From Chloroflexota bacterium (GTDB lineage: Bacteria > Chloroflexota > Anaerolineae > UBA1429), in contig JAIOAW010000001.1 of the NCBI GenBank assembly GCA_019873625.1, positions 124,001 through 188,000 of the forward strand: 64,000 nt of DNA, written 5' to 3'. A model generated the notes under the pieces. That model made no database searches. It was not told the origin of the DNA and saw only the letters and a list, made by a program, of their open reading frames with translations. Below, one piece after another: positions 35,265-49,241 of this stretch (position 1 is its first letter; each line of letters begins with the position of its first letter). A program made the translations under genes and the position numbers.

Positions 35265-35819
35265 TCAAACCGACTCATCGGCGTCAATCAAAATGACTTT
35301 GACAGGAACAGCGGGAAAGTGCCGCTTCAATCGCTCAATATCATAGACGAGTTGCTCGCCATATGACACGCCGGTAGACATTTGCGTGTGCAACGCATGG
35401 CATGGCACAATCTCGATGCCTACATCGGCTTTGTTCTCATTAAAGAAATACTGAAACTTGGCCATATCGTAAAACATAAAGGCATATTTGCCGAATTGCA
35501 CCTCGACTAGAACTTTGCCTTTTACAAAGTCAATCTGCTTGAAAGCGCCTCGAATCTCAATATCGCTATTAGGCAGCGTGATGGTGTACGTATCGCGCAG
35601 TTCCATATACCCTTTCGATCTGAAAGCCTCTCGAAACTGGTCATTCATATCCTTGGGCGAAAAAAGCGCCCGCCCGGGCATCGTTTTCTCGCTACTGATC
35701 TTGTTTTTCTGCGCCTTTACCCTCGAGATAACGTCGGCGATTTCGCGCTCACAGTCGGGGTACCGTACCTGGAGAATCTCTGCTCCCCCGAGGTGAGAGT
35801 ATTCGTAAACAATTCTCAT
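35265..35819 (-). CDS. Type II restriction endonuclease, BglII/BstYI family
   Basis: A 184-residue nuclease close to BstYI: it begins MRIVYEYSHLGGAEILQV, and the family core QIDFVKGKVLVEVQFGKYAF holds Asp97, Glu106 and Gln108 with the same 9- and 2-residue spacing as the D84/E93/Q95 active site of BglII. VGIEIVP and MSTGVSYGEQ blocks also match BstYI as remembered. BstYI cuts R^GATCY and BglII cuts A^GATCT, so a GATC-centred hexamer is the likely target. The start overlaps the methyltransferase stop (ATGA). The gene is AT-richer than its surroundings. Confidence 0.88.
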   Translation of the reverse strand: MRIVYEYSHLGGAEILQVRYPDCEREIADVISRVKAQKNKISSEKTMPGRALFSPKDMNDQFREAFRSKGYMELRDTYTITLPNSDIEIRGAFKQIDFVKGKVLVEVQFGKYAFMFYDMAKFQYFFNENKADVGIEIVPCHALHTQMSTGVSYGEQLVYDIERLKRHFPAVPVKVILIDADESV

Positions 35820-36772
35820 TTCCCCTGCTCCGGCGCGATGTAATGCGAATCCGTTTCGAAAAGCTCGGGCTGGGCAACACGCGGCCTTAAGTGAATGACC
35901 TGGGGAGGAACATTTGCCGAAGGCATATCGGGGTCATAAACCGAGCGCGTCATAGGTCGAATGCGTAAAGCACCTTCTTCTGCGAGACGAACGCGTTCTC
36001 TCGCAATTTTCACATATTCAGGCATAATCTCCGCGCCGATGGCTTTACGGTTATGCATAAGGGCAGCGATTGCGCTCGTTCCTACGCCAATAAACGGGTC
36101 TAAAACCCAGTCACCTTCATCGGTCATCGCTAATACGAGGCGTTCAATGAGTTCAACCGGAAATTGACAAGGATGGATCGTCTTTTCTACGTGATTTGCT
36201 TTCACATTGGGAATTTCCCATACGTCGCTCGGGTTCTTTCCTAATGGATTCCCCGAGAGAAGCCCTTTTTTGGGCCCTTTGAAATACTTTTTTTGAGGAT
36301 ACTTCTGAGGGACACGCACCGCATCTAAATTGAATGTATAAGTATCGCTTTTCGTAAACCAAAGGATGACCTCGTATCGGCCGGAGAACCGTTTCGACGC
36401 ATGCAGCCCATGACCGAAATGCCAAATAATGCGGTTGCGTAAATGCAAGTGGAAGGCATCAAAAATCGGATAGAGCACAATATCGAGGGGAATGATCTCG
36501 CCATTTTCTACATAGTTACCCACTTGCCAACAGATGCTGCCAGTATTCTTGAGAACCCGCACACACTCAGCAATCACCGTTTTCTGTTGCGCTAGATACT
36601 CACCCATATCGAGGCGGCTCTCATAAGGTTTGCCAAGGTTATACGGTGGCGAAGTTACGATGAGCTGTACGAATCCATCAGGAATTTGAGATAGAAGGTC
36701 CAAGCAATCTCCCTCGTAAAGGATAACGTCTGCCGATGGATCGAACGACGCCGCGATTTTGATATAATCCAT
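35816..36772 (-). CDS. Type II DNA methyltransferase partner of the BstYI-like nuclease
   Basis: A 318-residue beta-class amino-methyltransferase: catalytic TSPPY at residues 40-44 precedes SAM motif I (VLDPFIGVGTS, about 250). SPPY-type motifs are common in N4-cytosine enzymes, as in BglII/BamHI systems, so m4C is the likely product. It protects the host against the nuclease encoded directly downstream with a four-base overlap. The start is ATG 36772 with GAGGGGAG upstream; the longer frame to 36994 covers the promoters and the divergent VOC gene. Base composition is AT-rich, as for the nuclease. Confidence 0.93.
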   Translation of the reverse strand: MDYIKIAASFDPSADVILYEGDCLDLLSQIPDGFVQLIVTSPPYNLGKPYESRLDMGEYLAQQKTVIAECVRVLKNTGSICWQVGNYVENGEIIPLDIVLYPIFDAFHLHLRNRIIWHFGHGLHASKRFSGRYEVILWFTKSDTYTFNLDAVRVPQKYPQKKYFKGPKKGLLSGNPLGKNPSDVWEIPNVKANHVEKTIHPCQFPVELIERLVLAMTDEGDWVLDPFIGVGTSAIAALMHNRKAIGAEIMPEYVKIARERVRLAEEGALRIRPMTRSVYDPDMPSANVPPQVIHLRPRVAQPELFETDSHYIAPEQGK

Positions 36773-36815
36773 GCGATCTCCCCTCTGGCTTCCACACACC
36801 TTTCGTAGCACTTGT

Positions 36816-36844
36816 ATTTTATCTACTATAAAATAATTCTTCAA
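36816..36844 (-). promoter_or_regulatory. Promoter of the restriction-modification operon
   Basis: On the minus strand TTGAAG, 17 bases, TAAAAT, about 45 bases before the methyltransferase start. Confidence 0.55.
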
Positions 36845-36856
36845 ACCCCTGAAAGG

Positions 36857-36885
36857 TTGCCCTGCTTCCCCAAGGCGCCTATACT
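36857..36885 (+). promoter_or_regulatory. Promoter of the 36918 VOC gene
   Basis: TTGCCC at 36857-36862, 17 bases, TATACT at 36880-36885; AGGAGG and the ATG follow. Confidence 0.55.
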
Positions 36886-36917
36886 GCGCCCATCCGCTTT
36901 TTAGGAGGAACCCGACT

Positions 36918-37370
36918 ATGCCCGAAGGAATCCTTTCGCCGCAAGCCATTTGCCAAGTCGCTATCGTGGTCGAGGATATCGAGGCAGCCGCCAAGGCATG
37001 GGCGGCCGTCCTGGGGGTGCCCGTGCCCGCTTGGCACGTCGCGGGAGATCAGCCCGAGGCGAACACGCGCTACCACGGCCAGCCCTCCTCGGCCACCGCC
37101 AAACTCGCTTTCTTCGATATGGGCCAAGTGCGCCTCGAACTCATCGAGCCAGATGAGACGCCCAGCACCTGGCGCGATTTCCTCAATGCGCACGGCCCAG
37201 GCCTTCATCATATCGCCTTCAACGTGGGCCATATGGAGGGGGCGGTAGCGCGCCTGGAGGAAGTGGGCATTCCGGCCGTGCAAACGGGAGATTTCCCCGG
37301 CGGCTGTTATGCCTATTGCGATGGCACGGCACAGTTGGGCGCCATTTTGGAACTCTTGGCGCGGCGCTAG
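36918..37370 (+). CDS. VOC family protein
   Basis: A 150-residue vicinal-oxygen-chelate protein of the glyoxalase_4 branch: Gln in ICQVAIVVEDIEAA, His in GLHHIAFNVGHM and Glu in AILELLARR mark the metal site. It resembles the 24868-25404 VOC protein and may act on a related hydroxyacid or sugar derivative; the substrate is unknown. TTAGGAGGAA precedes the ATG. Its 3' end overlaps the convergent EamA gene by four bases. Confidence 0.85.
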   Translation: MPEGILSPQAICQVAIVVEDIEAAAKAWAAVLGVPVPAWHVAGDQPEANTRYHGQPSSATAKLAFFDMGQVRLELIEPDETPSTWRDFLNAHGPGLHHIAFNVGHMEGAVARLEEVGIPAVQTGDFPGGCYAYCDGTAQLGAILELLARR

Positions 37371-38352: not shown

Positions 38353-40266
38353 TCAGGGGCCTTCCCACCCTATGGTTATGCCGGCGAGATCGGCTTCCAG
38401 ATGGGTTTTGAGAAGGAGGGTCTGCGCGTCGAGGGCCTCCCACGGCGGTGGGGCAACCAACGTGCCCTGGAGAGCACGAACCGTAACCGCCAAGGGCACG
38501 CCCTCGATGCCGGCTTGTTTCTGCACCGTGAGGCGGTAAGCCCTATTGCCCCCCTGACCGCCGAGGATATAATCGGGCAAGCGGTACGTCAGGCATATAG
38601 AGCGCTCCTCCTGCGGGGGTACGACGAGAAGTGCCCCAAACGTCCGTTTACCCTCCTCCTCGCCGATGCGCACATCGCCCTCCACGCCCTCCGCGCTGAG
38701 CAGATCGCTCCCCTCGGGCACAAAGACGCGCACGTAATCCCAATAGCACTGCTCGGTGAGCGCTTCGTAGGAATCCCCATACGCGGCGCGATGTTCACAA
38801 CGTTCGAGGTGCACGTTGGCCTGGTTACGGTATGTGAGGCAGATGCGCCCCTCAGGGCGCTCCCCAAGCGTAACCTCATAGGCGATAGCACGGGCGATGT
38901 GCCGATCCACCTTATTCCAGCCCATATTCGTATCCACTACCAAAAGGTAATCGCCCTCGCCTTGGGCCAAGGCGCCCGCCATACCGAACCGTTCTATGGC
39001 TTCCTGGGCGCGGGGATCCGCCGCCCAGAATAGAAGGTGTTTCTGCTCAACCGCCGGGCCGATGGCACTCGCCAAACGCGCCCCGTCGCGTACGCTGAGC
39101 GCGCGGGCGCGCGCCAAGATAGCCTTCAACACCGCACCGCCGAAATCCTTGCGGTGCGCGAGCCAAGCCTGAAAATCCATCTGCCGCTCGCGGATGGAGG
39201 GCGCGCCGATGGGCGCCTCCCAAAAACCGATAGCCACCTCGATGGCATTCTCTTGGGTGATCGTAACCTCATAGCCAGGCACGGGAACCGCGCCTAACGC
39301 ACCGAGGAACATCCTGACGAAGGCCGTATCCATCGCGATCACGGCAGAGACCTCTTCGCCCGTGCCGCTCTGGTAGAGCGAGGCCAACACGTGGGCCGAG
39401 GTGGGGAAATCTGGCGACCAATTCGCATCGCGGAAGACGAGCACGGGCGCGAGCATAATCTCGCGCAAGGGGTCGGGCGGTGCCGGCGGTGGCTCGGGGC
39501 CGGTGGGGATATCGTAACTATTCCGGTAATCCGCCGAAAGGAGCCTCGCCCCATCGAAGCGCAGCACCACCACGCCGCTGATGAACCCCCCTGTGGCGCG
39601 CAACTCGTCGCTATTTTGCACGAGGAGAAGCACCGTGTGCTGCCCTTGGCGAAAAAGGTGCGGCGCGATGACCAGTGCCCGTGCCCCCCAAGCGCCGGCC
39701 TCAGCATAGGGCGCGAGGTCGGCAAGCCGGCCCCCGGCCTGCCGGGCGATAGCGGCCGCTTCTGAAAAATGCCCTTGGGCTTGAACGAGACGCTCGCGAT
39801 CCTGCGCGAACGATTTGAGGGCGGCGAGGAGGGGATCCTCTTCCATCACAAAAGGGGTGCCCGTAGCCGTCGTGATGAGGCCGAAATGATCCGCCGCACT
39901 TTCCAAGCGCACGGCGGCCCACCAAGCCGCCGTAGCCAGGTCGGCCGTTGCGCTCAGCGTGTGCTGGAGAAAAGCGACGCGCCTCTCCAGCCAGGGCCAC
40001 CAGCGCGGCCTAGGAAGGTGCCGCCCGAGCCTTTCGAAGGTGCGCAAAAAACGTTCCAGGCTCTCCATATCGCGTCGCAAAGCGCCTGCCCGGTCTGGGC
40101 TGGGCATCCCCGCGCTTTGCACCTCTTGGTAGAGGGCCACCCCATCCTCTCGCAGGTGCCGAAGGGTTGTCCTCAGCCCCCAATAGGTCGTTACCCCTTC
40201 GTAAACGGCCGCACAAAAGGCCACAACCAGGAGCCAAAAGGCGAGTTGCCGAATAGAGCGCCTCAT
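38353..40266 (-). CDS. DUF4012 domain protein, membrane-anchored
   Basis: A 637-residue protein with one N-terminal membrane anchor (LAFWLLVVAFCAAVYEG, about residues 8-24), a helical segment, and a DUF4012 domain from about residue 205 (LLLVQNSDELRATGGFISG is the family hallmark). DUF4012 proteins are found in Gram-positive and Chloroflexi surface-polysaccharide loci; the biochemical role is unknown. The start overlaps the stop of the glycosidase gene (ATGA). It is the last gene of the NusG-paralogue - sortase - glycosidase operon. Confidence 0.88.
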   Translation of the reverse strand: MRRSIRQLAFWLLVVAFCAAVYEGVTTYWGLRTTLRHLREDGVALYQEVQSAGMPSPDRAGALRRDMESLERFLRTFERLGRHLPRPRWWPWLERRVAFLQHTLSATADLATAAWWAAVRLESAADHFGLITTATGTPFVMEEDPLLAALKSFAQDRERLVQAQGHFSEAAAIARQAGGRLADLAPYAEAGAWGARALVIAPHLFRQGQHTVLLLVQNSDELRATGGFISGVVVLRFDGARLLSADYRNSYDIPTGPEPPPAPPDPLREIMLAPVLVFRDANWSPDFPTSAHVLASLYQSGTGEEVSAVIAMDTAFVRMFLGALGAVPVPGYEVTITQENAIEVAIGFWEAPIGAPSIRERQMDFQAWLAHRKDFGGAVLKAILARARALSVRDGARLASAIGPAVEQKHLLFWAADPRAQEAIERFGMAGALAQGEGDYLLVVDTNMGWNKVDRHIARAIAYEVTLGERPEGRICLTYRNQANVHLERCEHRAAYGDSYEALTEQCYWDYVRVFVPEGSDLLSAEGVEGDVRIGEEEGKRTFGALLVVPPQEERSICLTYRLPDYILGGQGGNRAYRLTVQKQAGIEGVPLAVTVRALQGTLVAPPPWEALDAQTLLLKTHLEADLAGITIGWEGP

Positions 40267-41168
40267 CGGGCTTTAGACCTCAACGCCGCAATCGCATCGC
40301 GGTAGGCTTGCCCATAAGGAGTCAACCCCCCCTGGGCGTCATAAAGGTCGCCGCCAAATCGCCCTTGGGTATCGTTGGCAAACCAGGCCCAACTTTGGAC
40401 GTAACCCGTCTCCGCGAGCCAGCGGACGCTGGCTCGCATAAAACGGATGACCTCTTCCGGGGGCACTTCGGATCCATCTGCCAGGCGCTTTTGGGGCACG
40501 CCAAACTCGCTCAAGACGAGGGGTTTATCTCCCTCGCCTACACGGGCCATCCATTCTCGAAAGGTGATGATGCGTTCTTGGAAGGCCTGCAAGTCCCACG
40601 GGGCGCGTTCCGGTTCAAGGATATAATTGTGAATATTCCAGGCATCCACAGGGGGGTAACGGCCATACTGGGCGCGGTAACTTGCGCGAAAGTCATGCGC
40701 CCAACCCCAGTCGGCATTGGCGATGCCGGCAGGCATTATGCGACAGGTGGGGTCCAGGCGGCGCGCCGCCTCGACAAAACGGTGGTAAAAGGCGGCATAG
40801 GCCGCCGGCGAAAGGTTATCTTGCGTGGGGTCGTTCGGCTCGTTGCCCACCATCCACCACTGGCCGGGGTGCTCTTTGAGGGCGCGCGCTAGGGCCTCGT
40901 CGTCATAGTGCCAGGGGACGAGGTAAACGCGCTCATAGCCCGGCACCGTGGGGCCGCTGAAGCCATAGGTGTAATACCAGAGGGGCGCGATCTGCCCCAG
41001 TTGAGCGGTTGTGGGCCACACCGCAGCCACCAAGCCCGGCCCACCCGGCGGGCGGCGCAACCAAGGCCCGCCCGCCGCACGTTGTAGAGCGGCGATCAGC
41101 AAGAGGCCGATGAAAGCCGCCACCCCACGGCCGAAAACCTCCCAAGGAGAGCGTTGCTGTTCCATCAT
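40263..41168 (-). CDS. Membrane-anchored clan GH-A glycoside hydrolase
   Basis: A 301-residue protein with an N-terminal anchor (about residues 11-30) and a TIM-barrel glycosidase domain. The acid/base Glu110 sits in the V-G-N-E-P motif and the nucleophile Glu221 in LVLSEFG, the paired glutamates of retaining clan GH-A enzymes (GH5/GH39/GH53-like). It probably acts outside the membrane on a cell-surface glycan; the exact family is not clear. The start is ATG 41168, overlapping the sortase stop (ATGA); the adjacent ATG 41165 is an alternative. Its own stop overlaps the DUF4012 start. Confidence 0.82.
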   Translation of the reverse strand: MMEQQRSPWEVFGRGVAAFIGLLLIAALQRAAGGPWLRRPPGGPGLVAAVWPTTAQLGQIAPLWYYTYGFSGPTVPGYERVYLVPWHYDDEALARALKEHPGQWWMVGNEPNDPTQDNLSPAAYAAFYHRFVEAARRLDPTCRIMPAGIANADWGWAHDFRASYRAQYGRYPPVDAWNIHNYILEPERAPWDLQAFQERIITFREWMARVGEGDKPLVLSEFGVPQKRLADGSEVPPEEVIRFMRASVRWLAETGYVQSWAWFANDTQGRFGGDLYDAQGGLTPYGQAYRDAIAALRSKAR

Positions 41169-41992
41169 CCACGGTAAGGGCGTGCGATGACCACCACCCG
41201 ATGGGTATAGGCCCATTCGGGCCAACAGGTGATGAGCGTCAGCCGATCGTCTTCGGTGGGGTCCATATAGCGGGCGTTTTGCAACCTCTGTTCCAGGCTC
41301 GCCCCCACCTCTTGCAGTTTGAGGACCTCCTCAACGATGTACAGATATTCTTGCCCCTCGCGCGTGATGATCCACACCTCATCGCCCGGTTGGAGGTCCC
41401 ACAGTCGGCGAAACACGCCGCCGCCCTTCCCCCCTGTATGCCCCGAAAGCACCGTATTGCCAGGCCCCCCCAGAGGGGCGCTACCGCGATGATGCCCCAC
41501 GGCCCCGCTCAACGTATCCCACACGGCCACCCTCTGCCCGCCGATTTCCTCGATATGCCAGCCCACCTCGAGGATCGGCGCATCGCGCTCAATCGCGGGG
41601 ATGACGATGCGCCCGATGGCGCCGCGAGGCATATCCCCCCAAGCCGTCACGGGGAAGGGCGTCGGCGAGGGGGGCAGAGTGGGCGTCAAGGTCAGCGTAG
41701 GGGTCGGCGTCTTGGTAGGGGGCGCAGGCGTCGGCGTGAGAGCCTGCGTTGGCGGGGGAGCCGTGACCGTGGGGGAATGGGTTGGAATGGGCGTGTGTGT
41801 CGGCTCGGTGGGAGAAGGCGCGAACCCCTCTGCCGCCGTGGGCGCGACCTCCACAGAGGGCGAAGGGGCCTCTTGGCCTAGCCCCGCCACGATGAGCCGC
41901 ACGGCGATAAGCCCCAAGAGGAGCGCCCATATCACGTGCCCTAGGGTGAGGCGAAATCCCTTCCTAGGCCAAAAGAGCGGGAATCGTTTCAT
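41165..41992 (-). CDS. Sortase (class D/E type) with Pro/Thr-rich linker
   Basis: A 275-residue membrane transpeptidase. After a membrane span (about residues 17-37) comes a Pro/Thr/Ser linker (about 42-115) and the sortase beta-barrel with His185 (LSGHTG), Cys256 in the TLITC motif and Arg265 (THRVVV). Sortases cleave LPxTG-like signals and attach proteins to the wall or pilus. No LPxTG protein is encoded in this operon, so substrates lie elsewhere or differ. The start is ATG 41992, after the NusG-paralogue stop; a TTG two codons upstream is less likely. Confidence 0.92.
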   Translation of the reverse strand: MKRFPLFWPRKGFRLTLGHVIWALLLGLIAVRLIVAGLGQEAPSPSVEVAPTAAEGFAPSPTEPTHTPIPTHSPTVTAPPPTQALTPTPAPPTKTPTPTLTLTPTLPPSPTPFPVTAWGDMPRGAIGRIVIPAIERDAPILEVGWHIEEIGGQRVAVWDTLSGAVGHHRGSAPLGGPGNTVLSGHTGGKGGGVFRRLWDLQPGDEVWIITREGQEYLYIVEEVLKLQEVGASLEQRLQNARYMDPTEDDRLTLITCWPEWAYTHRVVVIARPYRG

Positions 41993-41998
41993 CGGCAA

Positions 41999-42526
41999 TC
42001 AGTTCTGCGATGCATACCCCACGCGCCACACGGCAGGTCCTTCCACCGGTTCGAGCGCGCTGAACTCGACCTCACAGCGCGTCAGCCGCCCCAAGATCTC
42101 AAGGAGCACGCAGGCCCGCTTGGCATCCGAACAAGGGCGCTCAAAGATGGCCTCCAGGTTGGCCAGGGGGTGCCCCTCTTGAAAGCGCACCCGTTGGCCC
42201 GCTTGGAAGGGCACTTGATGAGGGTCACCGCACTCGGCAATGCGCCGTTGAATATGGGCAATGATCTCCTCGGGCACCCGGGCATATTCCTCGCCAAACC
42301 GCAAGATGCTCACCAACCCCGGCGTCCAGCGGATGGCATCGAGCGCCAAGGCCTCAAACTCCCACCGCGCAAAGAGATAGCGCGGGAAGAGCGGCCTGGG
42401 CGCCCGTCGAGAGGCAGTCAAAGGGTAAAACGGCAAATAGACCTCGACGCCCTGTTTGGCCAAACGGTCATACACGGCGCGCTCTTTTAACGGCTTGGTA
42501 AAGAGGACGTACCAAGGTTCCGCCAT
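41999..42526 (-). CDS. NusG paralogue (RfaH/UpxY-like specialised antiterminator)
   Basis: A 175-residue protein with a NusG N-terminal domain (WYVLFTKPLKERAVYDRLAKQG..., about residues 1-95) and a C-terminal KOW-like domain (VPFQAGQRVRFQEGHPLA, then VLLEILGRLT). The ILGR ending and 'F-x-R-Y-L-F-A' segment are features of RfaH/UpxY/LoaP paralogues rather than housekeeping NusG, which is also normally beside secE and rplK. Such factors ride RNA polymerase and suppress termination in long surface-polysaccharide operons. It is the first gene of a sortase - glycosidase - DUF4012 operon and probably promotes its expression. Confidence 0.87.
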   Translation of the reverse strand: MAEPWYVLFTKPLKERAVYDRLAKQGVEVYLPFYPLTASRRAPRPLFPRYLFARWEFEALALDAIRWTPGLVSILRFGEEYARVPEEIIAHIQRRIAECGDPHQVPFQAGQRVRFQEGHPLANLEAIFERPCSDAKRACVLLEILGRLTRCEVEFSALEPVEGPAVWRVGYASQN

Positions 42527-42557
42527 GCCTCCACCCCATCCATCGGAATTGCCCGCG

Positions 42558-42586
42558 ATTGTATCGCCCCGCGGGAACCAAGGCAA
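42558..42586 (-). promoter_or_regulatory. Promoter of the NusG-paralogue - sortase operon
   Basis: On the minus strand TTGCCT, 17 bases, TACAAT; the start codon follows about 30 bases later, giving a short leader. Confidence 0.6.
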
Positions 42587-42599
42587 GCGCCCTGCGGCC

Positions 42600-43979
42600 T
42601 TATACCAAACCGGGCAGGTAAGCCTTATTCGCCTCGAGCATCTCTCGGAACATCGCCCACGCACGGTCTATGGGCAAATGCGTGAGCGGATCGCTGAAGA
42701 CGGCCTGGAAGGCCAAATCCACATTGCGCGTCAGGGCGGCCTCGACGATCATCTCCTGATTGCGCACGTGAGGCTCGACCAGGTTGAGCACGCCCGGCGG
42801 CAGCGCACCCGCCACGATGGGCCGCACGCTATCCTGAGCAAAGTAGGCGTTCGTCTCTACCACGGCCCCCAGCGGTAAATTGGCAATCTGCCCCTCGTTG
42901 GGCAAATTGCAGTTCGTCATCATATCGCCCAAGCCCAAAAGGGCGCACATCTGCTGGACGCCTTCCTCCCCCGAAGGCTTCAATGCGAAGGGGCGTTCGC
43001 CCGCCATAAGGGCGCGTGTTTGCTCCGGTGCTTCGGCCCACCGGGCATAGCGGTAAGACATAGGGGTGAGCGAAAACCCATAGCGGTACACCGTCTCCTC
43101 ATCCACCGTAAACCCCGGCACGAACTCGGCGATATGCCGGTCCCCCGCCGCGGGCAAAAGCCCGTAGCGTTCGAACAGGCTGAATTTCACCTGATGCGCG
43201 CAGGTGAAATAGTTCCCCCAGGAAAGCACCTCTTCGCGGGTGTAGGGGCGCATAACCCCTTCCTGGGCGATGTGGTGCCGCACCAGGGCGAGCAAATCCC
43301 TCCCGCGATAGGTGGCGCGGTCAATCCACGTGAAATGGTTGATGCCGAGCACGTTGACTTCGATTTCCTGGCGACGAGGCCGGGGAATGCCCCAATACTG
43401 CGCGGCCAAATCGGCCAGCAGTTCTTGCGCGCCGAACACCTCATGGCAGCAGCCAAAGACCTTTAGGCCGGGGCAAGCCTTGGTCAGCGTGCGAGTGCAG
43501 ATGGTCATCGGGTTGGTGTAGTTGATGATCCAAGCCCCTGGGCAGAATGCCTCGATGTTGTGGGCAAACCCCTCATAGATGAGCGCCGCGCGCAGGCCGC
43601 GCATCAGGCCGGGCGCGCCGATGGTATCTCCCACCGGGTAAAGCAGCCCATAGCGCGCGGGGATGGCCAAATCTTGCTCCATAGCCTCCAGCGGCCCCGG
43701 CTGGATGGAGCACACGACGAAATCGGCGCCGCGCAGGGCCTCTTCGAGGGTGGGCACAGCGCGGTAGCGCCAATCGGCCACCACGCCGGGCTGCCGCTGA
43801 ATCCAATTCCCCAAGGCCTCGTTCAGCCGAGCGGCCTCCAGATTGATGTCATACAGGTACACCTCGCCCCCTAAGGAGGGGCACAGGGCCAAATCTTGCA
43901 TAAGCATCCGCGCCCAACCCCGGCTGCCACCCCCCAAATAGGCGATCTTGAGCCGGATGGGCGCCTCGTTCCCGACCAT
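42600..43979 (-). CDS. Alpha-galacturonidase (GH4, CHEV motif)
   Basis: A 459-residue family 4 glycosidase using NAD+, Mn2+ and a redox elimination mechanism. The Rossmann loop YLGGGSRGW is at residues 14-22, NYTNPMT is the metal-side block and C178-H179-E180-V181 is the CHEV motif described for alpha-galacturonidases (Bacillus LplD, Thermotoga), as opposed to CHSV or CHNV of other GH4 enzymes. It would release galacturonate from pectin or rhamnogalacturonan oligomers in the cytoplasm. The start is ATG 43979 after GGGAGGTG. It is monocistronic by layout but close to uronate-type genes. Confidence 0.9.
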   Translation of the reverse strand: MVGNEAPIRLKIAYLGGGSRGWARMLMQDLALCPSLGGEVYLYDINLEAARLNEALGNWIQRQPGVVADWRYRAVPTLEEALRGADFVVCSIQPGPLEAMEQDLAIPARYGLLYPVGDTIGAPGLMRGLRAALIYEGFAHNIEAFCPGAWIINYTNPMTICTRTLTKACPGLKVFGCCHEVFGAQELLADLAAQYWGIPRPRRQEIEVNVLGINHFTWIDRATYRGRDLLALVRHHIAQEGVMRPYTREEVLSWGNYFTCAHQVKFSLFERYGLLPAAGDRHIAEFVPGFTVDEETVYRYGFSLTPMSYRYARWAEAPEQTRALMAGERPFALKPSGEEGVQQMCALLGLGDMMTNCNLPNEGQIANLPLGAVVETNAYFAQDSVRPIVAGALPPGVLNLVEPHVRNQEMIVEAALTRNVDLAFQAVFSDPLTHLPIDRAWAMFREMLEANKAYLPGLV

Positions 43980-44009
43980 CTTCACCTCCCAGCAAGCGCA
44001 GTGAGGCCA

Positions 44010-44039
44010 AGTATAACCTTTCTTGCCGCGCAATGTCCA
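44010..44039 (-). promoter_or_regulatory. Promoter of the alpha-galacturonidase gene
   Basis: On the minus strand TGGACA, 18 bases, TATACT, about 25 bases before the start codon's ribosome site. Confidence 0.55.
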
Positions 44040-45159: not shown

Positions 45160-46287
45160 TTACTCCGTGGGGAGTTCCGCAAGCGCCTCAAGAGGCAAGG
45201 TCTCGAAGGTGGTCACGAGTTCCTGCGTTTGCCCCGTGGCCGCCGCCTGGTAGCCCTTGTCAATGATTTCGATAACGTGGCGGGCGTGCTCGGCGGTGAC
45301 GATGGTGGGTTTATCCTCGCGGATCCAATCCACGAGTTGCATCATATCTTCGAACACGTGGCGCTCTTGCATCGTGGCGTGCGGGCCTACCTGGTGTGGC
45401 TCAAAGTTAGAGGGCTTGGTGAGGTCCATTTCTCCAAACTTGAACCCCTCGATAGCCCCCTCGGTGCCATAGATGTTGGGCTGGAACCCCACCGTGGGGT
45501 GCCCCGTCACCGCGCCGTACACGTAGGCATAGAAGGCATCTCCAAAATCGAGCACGAGGAAGGTGTTATCGTCCATATCGCAGGTGAACTTTTCGCCCCG
45601 GAACTCGCGCTCCTTGATGAGGAGGCCCGAAAAGCCCGTGACGCGCTTGGCCGGCCCCACGATGCCCGTGAGGATGTGCAGGCAGTAGACCGTTACGTCA
45701 TACTGCGGGCCGCCGCCCGGCTTGCGGAAGTACCAAATGGGGGCGATGTTGCTCAAGACGTCGCTCCCTTGGCGCACCGGCTCGTTCAGATGATAGTTCC
45801 CCACGCCGGCCGCCCCGGTGAGCGCCCAGGCGAGAAGGCCCAGTTTGCCCTCCAAGATGAGCCGACGCGCCCTCTGGTTGGCCGGGTAGAGCATCATCCC
45901 AGGGGAGGCCACGAGTTTGACCCCTTTGGCCTTGGCCTTGGCGATAACCTCATCCGCCTCGGCCAGGGTGATGGTCATCGTCTTGTTAAAGTGGATGTGC
46001 TTCCCCGCTTCGATGGCCATCAGGGCCTGCTCATAGTGCAGCCCAATGGGCGAGCAGAGCGTAACGGCATCCACATTCGGGTCAGCCAAAAGGTCCTCAT
46101 AGGAGAGGTACCAGGCCTTGACGCCGTACTTTTTGGCGGCCGCCTCGGCGCGGCCGGGGACGGGGTCGCACACGGCGGCGAGATAGACGCGATCCTGCAC
46201 ATCGGGCAGGCTCAGGTGCTCGAGCGCCGCGCGGATGCCGATAGACCCCGCACCGACCACTCCCATTCCCACAGCACTATTTTTCAT
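45160..46287 (-). CDS. Gfo/Idh/MocA family oxidoreductase with N-K-T motif
   Basis: A 375-residue dehydrogenase, last gene of a five-gene operon. The Rossmann loop VGAGSIG is intact, but the family E-K-P motif reads N101-K102-T103 (HFNKTMT): the catalytic lysine is kept and its neighbours differ. The C-terminal domain starts GGGPQYDVTVY, with Tyr at the usual His position. The 49268-50392 protein has the same replacements and is its paralogue. It is likely a cytoplasmic NAD(P)-dependent enzyme on a sugar, sugar acid or cyclitol; the substrate is unknown. Confidence 0.9.
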   Translation of the reverse strand: MKNSAVGMGVVGAGSIGIRAALEHLSLPDVQDRVYLAAVCDPVPGRAEAAAKKYGVKAWYLSYEDLLADPNVDAVTLCSPIGLHYEQALMAIEAGKHIHFNKTMTITLAEADEVIAKAKAKGVKLVASPGMMLYPANQRARRLILEGKLGLLAWALTGAAGVGNYHLNEPVRQGSDVLSNIAPIWYFRKPGGGPQYDVTVYCLHILTGIVGPAKRVTGFSGLLIKEREFRGEKFTCDMDDNTFLVLDFGDAFYAYVYGAVTGHPTVGFQPNIYGTEGAIEGFKFGEMDLTKPSNFEPHQVGPHATMQERHVFEDMMQLVDWIREDKPTIVTAEHARHVIEIIDKGYQAAATGQTQELVTTFETLPLEALAELPTE

Positions 46288-46343
46288 ATCGAACCCTCCT
46301 TCGAACGTAAGAGGGGCACGCCCAAAGGCGTGCCCCGGCGAAC

Positions 46344-47120
46344 CTATTTCCCCTCAAGGCGCCAGCGGTCAAGGACGTTGCGGATGCGCGCGATTTGTAG
46401 ACCCAACTCGGCATAACTATCGCTCACCAGTTCGGCGCTATAGTAGCCTTGGAACCCCGCATCGCGCAACATCGCCAGTTTGGCGGGCAGTTCGGCCTCG
46501 GGCGTGGAAGGTGTTACATGGGCGTGCATCACCCACGGGGCCACCATCTCATCGCCTTGGGCGGCGTTCTCGCCGCGCCACCGGCCGATGTGCAGGAGCA
46601 CACCAAAGGCGGGGCTATCCACCGCCTGGCACAGTTTGACCATATTCTCCGGCACATCCTCCGGCCCCCAGTGGTTCTCAGGGCCGATCTTGTAGCCGTT
46701 ATCGTAGGCGCGCTGAGCATACTTGCGGAACATCTCGGCGATATAGTCGAACTGCTCGTTCGTCCACTCCATATTCTCCCGCGCGCCGCCCGCGTCAATG
46801 CGGATAGTCTTGGCCCCGAGGTACTCGCCCGCTTCGATGTGCGCCCAGGCGCTCTCGTTCATCTTGGCGCGCAGGTCGGGGTCATCCTCCCACACGTGGC
46901 AGCGGTCGCAGGCCAGGTCCGCCAAGACGAGTTCGCGTTCGCAGAGGGCAGCTTTCACCTTAGCCAGATAGTCCTTATCCAGGCTGGTGAGCATAAAGTT
47001 CCAGATATCCGCCGCCTCTAGGCCGAAACGGTATTTTACCGTCTCTAGGTAGCCGAAAACGTCCACGGTGCCCGCCTGCATCATCCGCACGAAAGCAAAG
47101 GAAATGATCGAGACTTTCAT
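46344..47120 (-). CDS. Sugar phosphate isomerase/epimerase (TIM barrel)
   Basis: A 258-residue xylose-isomerase-like barrel. Segments carrying likely metal ligands are GPENHWG (Glu), AVDSPAFGVLLHIGR, MHAHV and YSAELV (Glu). The fold is used by epimerases, isomerases and by the C-glycoside and 3-keto-sugar cleaving enzymes found beside Gfo/Idh proteins. It lies between two Gfo/Idh genes on the same strand (56 and 16 bases away), so it should act on the product of one of them. The exact reaction is unknown. Confidence 0.82.
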   Translation of the reverse strand: MKVSIISFAFVRMMQAGTVDVFGYLETVKYRFGLEAADIWNFMLTSLDKDYLAKVKAALCERELVLADLACDRCHVWEDDPDLRAKMNESAWAHIEAGEYLGAKTIRIDAGGARENMEWTNEQFDYIAEMFRKYAQRAYDNGYKIGPENHWGPEDVPENMVKLCQAVDSPAFGVLLHIGRWRGENAAQGDEMVAPWVMHAHVTPSTPEAELPAKLAMLRDAGFQGYYSAELVSDSYAELGLQIARIRNVLDRWRLEGK

Positions 47121-47136
47121 CCTGCATTCTCCTTGT

Positions 47137-48252
47137 TTAGGCCGGCCGGTAGGTGGCTGGGTCAGCCGCTTCGATCTCGGCAGCGGTTACCTCGCGCCCT
47201 AGGTGCTGGGAGAGATAGACCCCTTCGGTGATGAAGGCCGTCTTGAGGGCGATGCCCGCCGTATCGAGGAGCGGCACGTACCCCAACTGGGCGCCCATCC
47301 AGTGCTTTTGCGAAGAGGTGTACCACACCGTCTCGGGGAAGCACTGCTGCCAGCGCCAATCGGCCTGCTTAACGTCAAAGGTCGCGTCCATCTCCATATC
47401 GGAGAAGGTGGTAAAGTAGGTGAGCGGCGCCGGCGAGATGCGGATGCCGGCCTTATCGCCATAGATGTAATCCGCATCGGGGTCCTCGGAGTGGATGGCC
47501 CAGGCCTCCTCCAACCAGAGGCTGACGCCGCCCGCCAGGCGCGCGAACCCCATGCCGAGTTCCTCGACGTTATATTTGCCGCTCTCGCGCCGATCGGGGT
47601 ACATATTGCCCCAGAGTTTCTGATAGGTGCTGCCCGAAACGCTGATGAGATCGGGGTTCCCCAGGAGGTACACCATCCGCGCGATGTGGTAGACGGCCAT
47701 ATCGAGCATCGCGCCGCCGCCGGAGGTGGAGGTGTTTACAAAGGCGGCCGAGCCGTAACCATCCACCCACGGCCGCCCGCGCCGGCGATAGTGGATCGTC
47801 TTGGCGAAATAAATCTCGCCCAACTGGCCGTCATCAATGAGCCGCTTGGCGGCGCGCGCCTCCGCCGCATAGAGCGTGCCCAGTTGGATGTGCAGCATCC
47901 GCCCCAACTGCTTGGCCGTGTCGTACATCAACTTGGCCTCTTTGTACGTCCAAGACATTGGCTTTTCGCAGTAGACGTTTTTCCCCGCCTTGAGCGCATC
48001 CACCGTAACCTGGCAATGGAAGCGGTTGTGCAGGCACACATCCACCGAGGTGATGTCATCGCGCTTGAGCAGTTCGTGGTAGTCGGTGTACACGTCTTTG
48101 ATGCCGAATTTCTGCGCCACGGCCCGCGCCACATCCTCGCGGACGTCGCACACCGCCACCATCTCGGCCTCGGGAATCTGCGCATAGTTCTCAATATGGC
48201 GCGTCCCGATTTGGCCCGTTCCGATAATCCCAATTTTCACCCGATTTGCCAT
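47137..48252 (-). CDS. Gfo/Idh/MocA family oxidoreductase
   Basis: A 371-residue dehydrogenase with the standard features: IGIIGTGQIGTRH Rossmann loop, C-E-K-P in the YCEKPMS block and GGGAMLDMAVY opening the C-terminal domain. It therefore differs from the two N-K-T paralogues in the same operon. The start is ATG 48252 after AGGAGAGAAC; the frame upstream to 48360 overlaps nothing coding. The C-terminal third is longer than in minimal members and may shape the substrate site. Substrate unknown. Confidence 0.9.
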   Translation of the reverse strand: MANRVKIGIIGTGQIGTRHIENYAQIPEAEMVAVCDVREDVARAVAQKFGIKDVYTDYHELLKRDDITSVDVCLHNRFHCQVTVDALKAGKNVYCEKPMSWTYKEAKLMYDTAKQLGRMLHIQLGTLYAAEARAAKRLIDDGQLGEIYFAKTIHYRRRGRPWVDGYGSAAFVNTSTSGGGAMLDMAVYHIARMVYLLGNPDLISVSGSTYQKLWGNMYPDRRESGKYNVEELGMGFARLAGGVSLWLEEAWAIHSEDPDADYIYGDKAGIRISPAPLTYFTTFSDMEMDATFDVKQADWRWQQCFPETVWYTSSQKHWMGAQLGYVPLLDTAGIALKTAFITEGVYLSQHLGREVTAAEIEAADPATYRPA

Positions 48253-48338
48253 CTTGTTCTCTCCTATGAGAAGATGATATGGGCTTACAGCCCTAGAAAA
48301 CCCCTGTTCCCTCGCGAGGGGCGCGATATATCGCGCCC

Positions 48339-49241
48339 CTATTTGAGGTAATCTCGCCAACTATGTTTGGGCGTCCAGCCCACCACCTCTTGGGCGTGCT
48401 CCACCGAGAAGAAAGCGCGGTGCCCCGTCATCTTTTGCGAGACGGGCAAGAGGTCCGGCCGGAATTTTTCGATGACCTCCAAACTCGGCTCAAGGAGCGT
48501 GCTATCCAGCCCGTTGGCCACGAATACATCGTGCGGCGGGAGTTGCTCGGCCTTTTCCATCAGCATCAACTGGAGTTCGGCGAGGTCCTCGCTCGCCACA
48601 TAGCCCCACATCCAGTCCGACCAGCCCGTGCAGGGCGCCGCAGTCTCGGCCATACGCTGGAGCCGCTCGGGCGGGCAAATGCCGGCCGGGCGCGTCATAT
48701 AGGTGCGCAGGCCGTAGGCGCGGGTGAACCACGCGAGCATCTCCTCGCCCACCAACTTGGAATAGGAGTACGAGTCCTCCACATCCGAGGGGTGCTTCTC
48801 ATCGAGCGGCAAATACTTGATGGGGAAGGGTCTGCCGGAGGTGCGGAACCCGTGACCGAAGGCGCAGTTCGACCCCGTCATCACGACGATCTTGACCCCT
48901 GCCTCCACCGCCGCCTTGAGGAGATAGTACGTGCCCATAATGTTCGTCATCATCGTCGCGTCAAAGGGGCGTGGCGGCAGGCCCATCGCGGCGCGCCGCT
49001 CGTTATAGCCCGGCACATCGCTGGGCGAGGGCACGGCGCCGAGATGCTGGATGGCATCCACCCCCTGCACCGCACGGAGGCAATCCTCATAGTTCGTGAG
49101 GTCGCCCTGAACCCACGGCAAGTCGGCACGATCCTCCGGCGGTTGAGACCGCGCAAAGAGCACGATATCGTGCCGGCCGCGCAAGGCCTTGACCATAAAC
49201 TCCGCAAACCGACCGCTGGCACCCGTTACAAGGACCTTCAT
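48339..49241 (-). CDS. NAD-dependent epimerase/dehydratase family protein (uronate-dehydrogenase-like SDR)
   Basis: A 300-residue extended SDR. The Rossmann motif is TGASGRFAEF (residues 7-16), slightly off the usual GxxGxxG, and the catalytic pair is Tyr158 and Lys162 with Ser124 before them. The general layout (MTGSNCAFGHG, DSYSYSKLVGEE) is similar to uronate dehydrogenases and nucleotide-sugar epimerases. Because an alpha-galacturonidase gene and Gfo/Idh genes are near, oxidation of a uronate or related lactone is a fair guess, not proven. The operon neighbours are both Gfo/Idh genes. Confidence 0.82.
   Translation of the reverse strand: MKVLVTGASGRFAEFMVKALRGRHDIVLFARSQPPEDRADLPWVQGDLTNYEDCLRAVQGVDAIQHLGAVPSPSDVPGYNERRAAMGLPPRPFDATMMTNIMGTYYLLKAAVEAGVKIVVMTGSNCAFGHGFRTSGRPFPIKYLPLDEKHPSDVEDSYSYSKLVGEEMLAWFTRAYGLRTYMTRPAGICPPERLQRMAETAAPCTGWSDWMWGYVASEDLAELQLMLMEKAEQLPPHDVFVANGLDSTLLEPSLEVIEKFRPDLLPVSQKMTGHRAFFSVEHAQEVVGWTPKHSWRDYLK

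Follow-up and report, generated by a model that had tools for sequence, protein, structure and literature searches.

Lipid-pyrophosphate-linked glycans are the substrates of LytR-CpsA-Psr (LCP) enzymes, which attach them to peptidoglycan or, in Actinomyces oris, to a sortase-anchored protein (PMC7831098, PMC6381275). Capsule operons and others related to them are expressed more strongly through the action of NusG paralogues (PMC7593976, PMC7819879). Earlier papers describe proteins with a DUF4012 domain in bacteria of the candidate phyla radiation and in Bifidobacterium (PMC6744442, PMC5412050). Here, we describe a four-gene operon encoding a NusG paralogue, a sortase, a glycosidase and a DUF4012 protein in a Chloroflexota bacterium, located in a stretch of 64,000 nucleotides (contig JAIOAW010000001.1, positions 124,001 to 188,000 of the forward strand), hereafter the window. 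The operon is real and less anomalous than first thought, and the functional assignment of its DUF4012 protein, whose core is predicted to adopt an LCP-like fold, is unexpected and testable. This predicted core also suggests the operon's purpose. The features in question, in window coordinates, are:

42558..42586, minus strand: candidate sigma70-type promoter, TTGCCT-17-TACAAT (9/12 consensus matches; a consensus match only), in the 73-bp gap between the family 4 glycosyl hydrolase (GH4) and NusG genes
41999..42526, minus strand: specialised, RfaH-like NusG paralogue of 175 aa (Pfam, family scores, tree)
41165..41992, minus strand: sortase with an N-terminal membrane segment, a PT-rich spacer and a sortase domain (Pfam and motifs)
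40263..41168, minus strand: Glyco_hydro_cc (PF11790) glycosidase with a hydrophobic N-terminal segment (Pfam and motifs)
38353..40266, minus strand: DUF4012 protein of 637 aa (Pfam and model)
38977..39669, minus strand: predicted LCP-fold core of the DUF4012 protein, residues 200-430 (predicted model and Foldseek)
42600-44033, minus strand: GH4, preceded by a promoter-like site of its own; its end lies 73 bp upstream of the NusG gene

The earlier note on this DNA had described the block as four genes joined by overlaps or short gaps and headed by a NusG paralogue, and reading frames, Pfam matches and junctions bear this out. All four genes are intact and tightly spaced on the minus strand (42526-38353); the sortase gene starts 6 nt past the NusG stop, and the starts of the GH-A-type glycosidase (41168) and DUF4012 (40266) genes each overlap the preceding stop in an ATGA. 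Each product matched its Pfam profile above the cut-off (E-values: NusG 6.7e-15, Sortase 8.4e-24, Glyco_hydro_cc 1.1e-18, DUF4012 4e-27). The sigma70-like site (42586-42558) is consistent with the NusG paralogue being the first gene, and -10-like sequences were also seen by eye 5' of NusG paralogues in two relatives. The NusG start had been placed at 42586; the ATG at 42526, with a GGAGG-like ribosome site and a frame of 528 bp, is the likelier start; the frame stays open beyond it, but this longer version overlaps GH4. Since GH4 lies on the same strand only 73 bp away with no clear terminator in the gap, read-through from it is possible; we nevertheless set GH4 aside as an operon member, given its cytoplasmic-type family and its own promoter-like site. 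A search of the genome (2.76 Mb, 97.6% complete; of the class Anaerolineae, going by its named relatives) returned two NusG domains, one of them the paralogue, and single copies of sortase and DUF4012, so that the sortase, the DUF4012 protein and the sole NusG paralogue are all clustered in this block.

We then turn to the DUF4012 protein. A model built from 48 sequences (predicted local distance difference test score (pLDDT) 93.8, predicted template modelling score (pTM) 0.92) comprised an N-terminal membrane helix with coiled helices, an LCP-fold core and a C-terminal beta-rich part, and the conserved core (residues 200-430) modelled alone gave a pLDDT of 93.0. In a Foldseek comparison of this core with the PDB, all 32 of the 32 matches with E<0.01 were LCP structures (E 1.4e-6 to 5.7e-3), and the first match beyond them had E=0.066 and a probability of 0.08. 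The matched structures include the octaprenyl pyrophosphate complex of Cps2A (3tep), TagT bound to wall-teichoic-acid lipids (6mpt, 6mps) and the LcpA proteins of Staphylococcus aureus (6uex) and A. oris (5v8c). Some structural-genomics entries among the 32 are titled 'transcriptional regulator', a name formerly given to LytR-type proteins, and were counted as LCP. Because every PDB match of the core at this threshold was an LCP structure, we propose that DUF4012 may be a divergent LCP-like transferase, which would move a lipid-linked glycan to an envelope acceptor. Canonical LCP genes were present in 30 of the 31 genomes searched, the source genome included, so DUF4012 adds to the canonical LCPs and does not replace them. 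In open-access literature mentioning DUF4012, we found no paper tying the family to LCP proteins, a link that other databases could already note.

With the whole DUF4012 chain as the query, LCP structures appeared among mixed matches. The others include the oligosaccharyltransferase ribophorin I and M1 aminopeptidases, which we attribute to the C-terminal beta-rich region (38353-38976).

Next, we considered the relatives. A DUF4012 profile run once against GTDB genomes yielded 79 loci, nearly all from Chloroflexota and many of them truncated. As lower bounds, obtained with home-made profiles and counting related genomes each, these loci held a GT-C protein related to TMEM260 (54), GT2 (41), a DUF11-type protein (26), Glyco_hydro_cc (23), sortase (21), a priming transferase (16), a flippase-like LPG_synthase_TM (16), Wzz (13) and Wzy (11). 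Two same-family loci (L094/L113) run sortase-NusG-secreted protein-Wzy-Wzz-glycosyl hydrolase-(cohesin/dockerin proteins)-glycosyl hydrolase-DUF4012, two others (L105/L178) run sortase-secreted protein-priming transferase-glycosyl hydrolase-DUF4012, and Caldilineaceae loci show a recurring order of sortase, GT2, DUF11 protein, TMEM260-like protein and DUF4012. The sortase-glycosidase-DUF4012 core thus recurs in related genomes, interleaved with Wzy, Wzz, priming sugar transferase and glycosyltransferases; the NusG paralogue is present in some loci only, and L105, L106 and L107 have the sortase-DUF4012 core but lack the paralogue. In Bifidobacterium longum, likewise, DUF4012 lies between a priming transferase and wzz in the capsular polysaccharide locus (PMC5412050).

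These findings remove the contrast that the earlier note had drawn between a short surface-enzyme set and the long polysaccharide operons, because the core of the relatives lies among surface-polysaccharide genes. The best reading of the window block is that of a pared-down polysaccharide-type locus, and its origin by loss is the simpler reading since several same-family genomes hold the longer form. The same absence of the relatives' polysaccharide genes could mean that the block is the decaying and now functionless remnant of a lost polysaccharide locus, an explanation we regard as improbable in view of the four open frames, the tight junctions, the catalytic motifs kept by sortase and glycosidase, and a sortase substrate still present in the genome (see below). 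For a stripped-down locus that still functions, other parts of the genome are relevant: it holds two priming-transferase loci with glycosyltransferases (contigs C36 and C14) and one canonical LCP.

The NusG paralogue is a specialised one. A second NusG domain (C7:85299), the housekeeping copy, scored 115 bits against 58 bits for the window paralogue, which rules out that the latter is the genome's sole housekeeping NusG. RfaH was the best-scoring curated family (106.3 of 144.5 bits), followed by UpxY (49.7 of 100) and LoaP (35 of 125), with none of these cut-offs reached. A tree of 30 rows split specialised from housekeeping NusG proteins at 100/100 and clustered the window protein with the paralogues of three same-family genomes (99/96 support). 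In the first of these (G002) the paralogue adjoins a priming transferase and Wzz, in the second (G007) Wzy and a glycosyltransferase, and in the third (G004) it lies within a sortase-Wzy-Wzz-glycosidase-DUF4012 cluster. Across 41 genomes (the source genome and 40 relatives), the paralogue is optional: 14 carry a specialised NusG, and DUF4012 occurs in 12 of these 14 vs 26 of all 41. Upstream of the G004 paralogue (L094:15664-16182), two GGTAGCTCT copies follow a TATACT box and recall the GGTAG core of the ops pause site; none was seen in the window leader.

We also considered that the paralogue, in the manner of RfaH in E. coli, might have its main targets in trans, in unlinked polysaccharide operons such as those on C36 and C14, its adjacency to the sortase being incidental. 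The availability of these two priming-transferase loci, the shortness of the block compared with the long known targets of specialised NusG proteins (PMC7593976) and the varied contexts of the paralogue across the class speak for this. Set against it are the genomic associations: 7 of the 79 DUF4012 loci contain a NusG-domain gene, and once one that is housekeeping by tree (L173) is removed, 6 specialised copies remain within 10 kb of DUF4012, 3 of which lie directly downstream of it in Anaerolinea. In addition, the longest k-mer shared among the leaders of the NusG paralogues, or between these and the genome's own priming-transferase loci, was 12 bases, and 9 for any pair with the window leader, leaving no common element above 9 bases between the window operon and the C36/C14 loci. 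We treat action mainly in trans as a serious alternative, though an unlikely one.

The sortase domain (PF04203, 84.1 bits) retains its His-Cys-Arg motifs (LSGHTG, TLITC, THRVVV) and reached the cut-off of none of the sortase classes A-F, the best being class E (52.6 of 160 bits). The glycosidase (Glyco_hydro_cc domain, 68.2 bits) has both catalytic glutamate motifs, WMVGNEPN (NEP) and VLSEFG (SEFG), and its hydrophobic N-terminal segment suggests that it is anchored. A search for sortase substrates with the Gram_pos_anchor profile gave nothing over the cut-off. A genome search with a DUF11 profile led to a protein of 259 residues with a signal sequence (C13:68427-69206; L222:427-1206), whose C-terminus, LPSTGDPTGRDAGYALLGGAAFIFAVLGYQRVLRRARKRA, is a canonical sorting signal consisting of LPSTG, a membrane segment and the basic tail RRARKRA; its gene lies ~40 bp upstream of that for a giant DUF11-repeat protein, which runs off the contig end. 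The earlier observation that no sortase substrate is encoded nearby thus holds for the flanks of the block, and genome-wide a canonical, unlinked LPSTG substrate is present. As a custom anchor profile built from this protein recovered its own seed alone, the list of substrates may be incomplete.

A similar repeat frame on contig C41 may be the other half of the giant protein. The same contig encodes a C25-family peptidase (Pfam Peptidase_C25; L224:1125-3938) and a repeat protein (L224:4028-6856) whose short C-termini, YFLPLIRKR and YHLPILAR, resemble each other and may be a common secretion or sorting signal.

In the relatives, secreted proteins adjacent to the sortase often end in LPEVGE, LPSVGK, LPDTGV or LPEAGGQ (LPxF-x in Caldilineaceae), without a membrane tail. 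Using a pattern written post hoc, we found such a terminal LPxTG-like motif in 23 of 38 sortase-adjacent secreted proteins vs 31 of 5344 other frames; several entries among the 38 come from close relatives or are duplicates of one locus, and the 5344 are mostly not genes. We take this enrichment at the extreme C-terminus as a lead, not proof, and the tail-less DUF11-type proteins listed here may be sortase substrates:

L178:6702-7211, L115:7213-7758, L114:8055-8699, L113:1826-2485 and L130:1-588: secreted DUF11-type proteins with the tail-less motif
Caldilineaceae loci such as L138, L154 and L186: further DUF11-type proteins with the tail-less motif

Proteins of this type also share QTVP after the signal peptide.

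Taken as a whole, we put slightly better than even confidence in a mechanism in which the block represents a surface-polysaccharide operon pared down to its finishing and attachment steps. The NusG paralogue would be made first, from its own promoter, and would travel with RNA polymerase along the operon, aiding elongation, and perhaps along unlinked glycan operons as well. The DUF4012 protein, held in the membrane by its N-terminal helix, would transfer an undecaprenyl-linked glycan to an envelope acceptor, either the wall or a surface protein; the donor would be made by enzymes encoded elsewhere, which the C36 and C14 priming-transferase loci could supply. The glycosidase would trim or release the glycan, and the sortase would covalently anchor LPxTG proteins such as the LPSTG protein on C13, which may itself be the glycan acceptor, the role that GspA has alongside LcpA and SrtA in A. 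oris. The wall-glycan attachment or remodelling system put forward in the earlier note is supported, in a more specific form, by the LCP-like predicted core fold of DUF4012.

Several results weigh against this mechanism, beginning with DUF4012 itself. The TM-scores of the LCP matches to the core were mostly 0.4-0.55, and the core lacks LCP sequence motifs, with no obvious counterpart of the SIPRD arginine (the arginines of A. oris LcpA are R128/R149/R266; PMC6381275). A profile comparison with 30 Chloroflexota LCPs gave a match that favours the link but is weak (26% probability over 34 columns) and not significant alone; it pairs LGVPVHYYVRVNFTGFVKIIDAMGGLTI with GEEVSAVIAMDTAFVRMFLGALGAVPV in an equivalent helix-strand-helix-strand. 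The comparison with the genome's single LCP was not significant, a sequence-only comparison with solved structures returned just helical or coiled-coil matches to the N-terminal helices, and a Pfam search (E<=0.001) found DUF4012 alone and no PF03816; Pfam does not link the two families. The unconserved canonical arginine motifs and the large extra beta-rich C-terminal part would also fit a protein that is LCP-like in fold and no enzyme, with a structural role in binding or guiding polysaccharide. Within the core, however, charged residues are invariant or nearly so (E221, R223, R279, D280, R372, K373), as might be expected of an active site, and we consider a purely structural DUF4012 rather doubtful, a shade more so than action of NusG mainly in trans.

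Turning back to a transferase within a NusG-led operon, the remaining difficulties concern its surroundings. The block lacks polysaccharide genes, leaving the glycan donor without a candidate in it, and local profiles, among them those for priming transferase, Wzz and Wzy, matched none of the other window genes. The LPSTG protein is tied to the operon only as the sole detected sortase substrate. Finally, no ops-like element was found in the NusG leader, which contains no GGCGGTAGNNT at <=1 mismatch (11 such matches in the window vs 16 expected).

DUF4012 is widespread in Chloroflexota and has no assigned function. An LCP-like role, if true, would account for its presence in capsule loci and widen the range of glycan-to-envelope ligation to include organisms with poorly understood envelopes, and the recurrent NusG-DUF4012 pairing, including that in Anaerolinea thermolimosa IMO-1, provides a possible study system for a Chloroflexota antiterminator. 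Much more tentatively than the mechanism above, we raise the idea that LCP-like glycopolymer transferases have a second family, DUF4012, divergent in sequence, which in Anaerolineae would work with a sortase on tail-less LPxTG-like DUF11-type proteins. Surface glycoproteins would then arise by a combined sortase and glycan-ligase route, one that has repeatedly recruited a NusG factor of its own.

Elsewhere in the window, GH4 (42600-44033) lies near a cluster of sugar oxidoreductase-like genes (45160-48360), the latter recognised by reading the sequence only, and a compact restriction-modification pair, a BglII-type restriction endonuclease adjoining an N4/N6 DNA methylase, occupies 35265-36994 on the minus strand.

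Compared with known systems, the operon shares features with four. Like the UpxY, RfaH and LoaP antiterminators, its NusG paralogue is a divergent additional NusG-domain protein whose gene lies within or next to a surface-glycan operon; unlike them, this protein falls below all three family cut-offs, and the operon is short and without a detected ops element. Wzy-dependent capsule and exopolysaccharide loci, such as the cps locus of B. longum 105-A (PMC5412050), resemble the relatives of the window in placing DUF4012 among a priming transferase and wzz, whereas genes for a priming transferase, Wzz, Wzy or a glycosyltransferase are missing from the window block. The DUF4012 protein differs from LytR-CpsA-Psr proteins (PF03816) in lacking Pfam-level similarity and clear counterparts of the canonical arginine motifs and in its extra C-terminal beta-rich part, and resembles them in its predicted core fold and N-terminal membrane anchor. 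In the LcpA-GspA-SrtA system of A. oris (PMC6381275), a canonical LCP is linked to the acceptor gene, whereas the present block links DUF4012 to a sortase and a glycosidase and contains no gene for an acceptor; both systems combine an LCP-fold transferase, predicted in our case, with a sortase, and in A. oris the two act on one surface protein.

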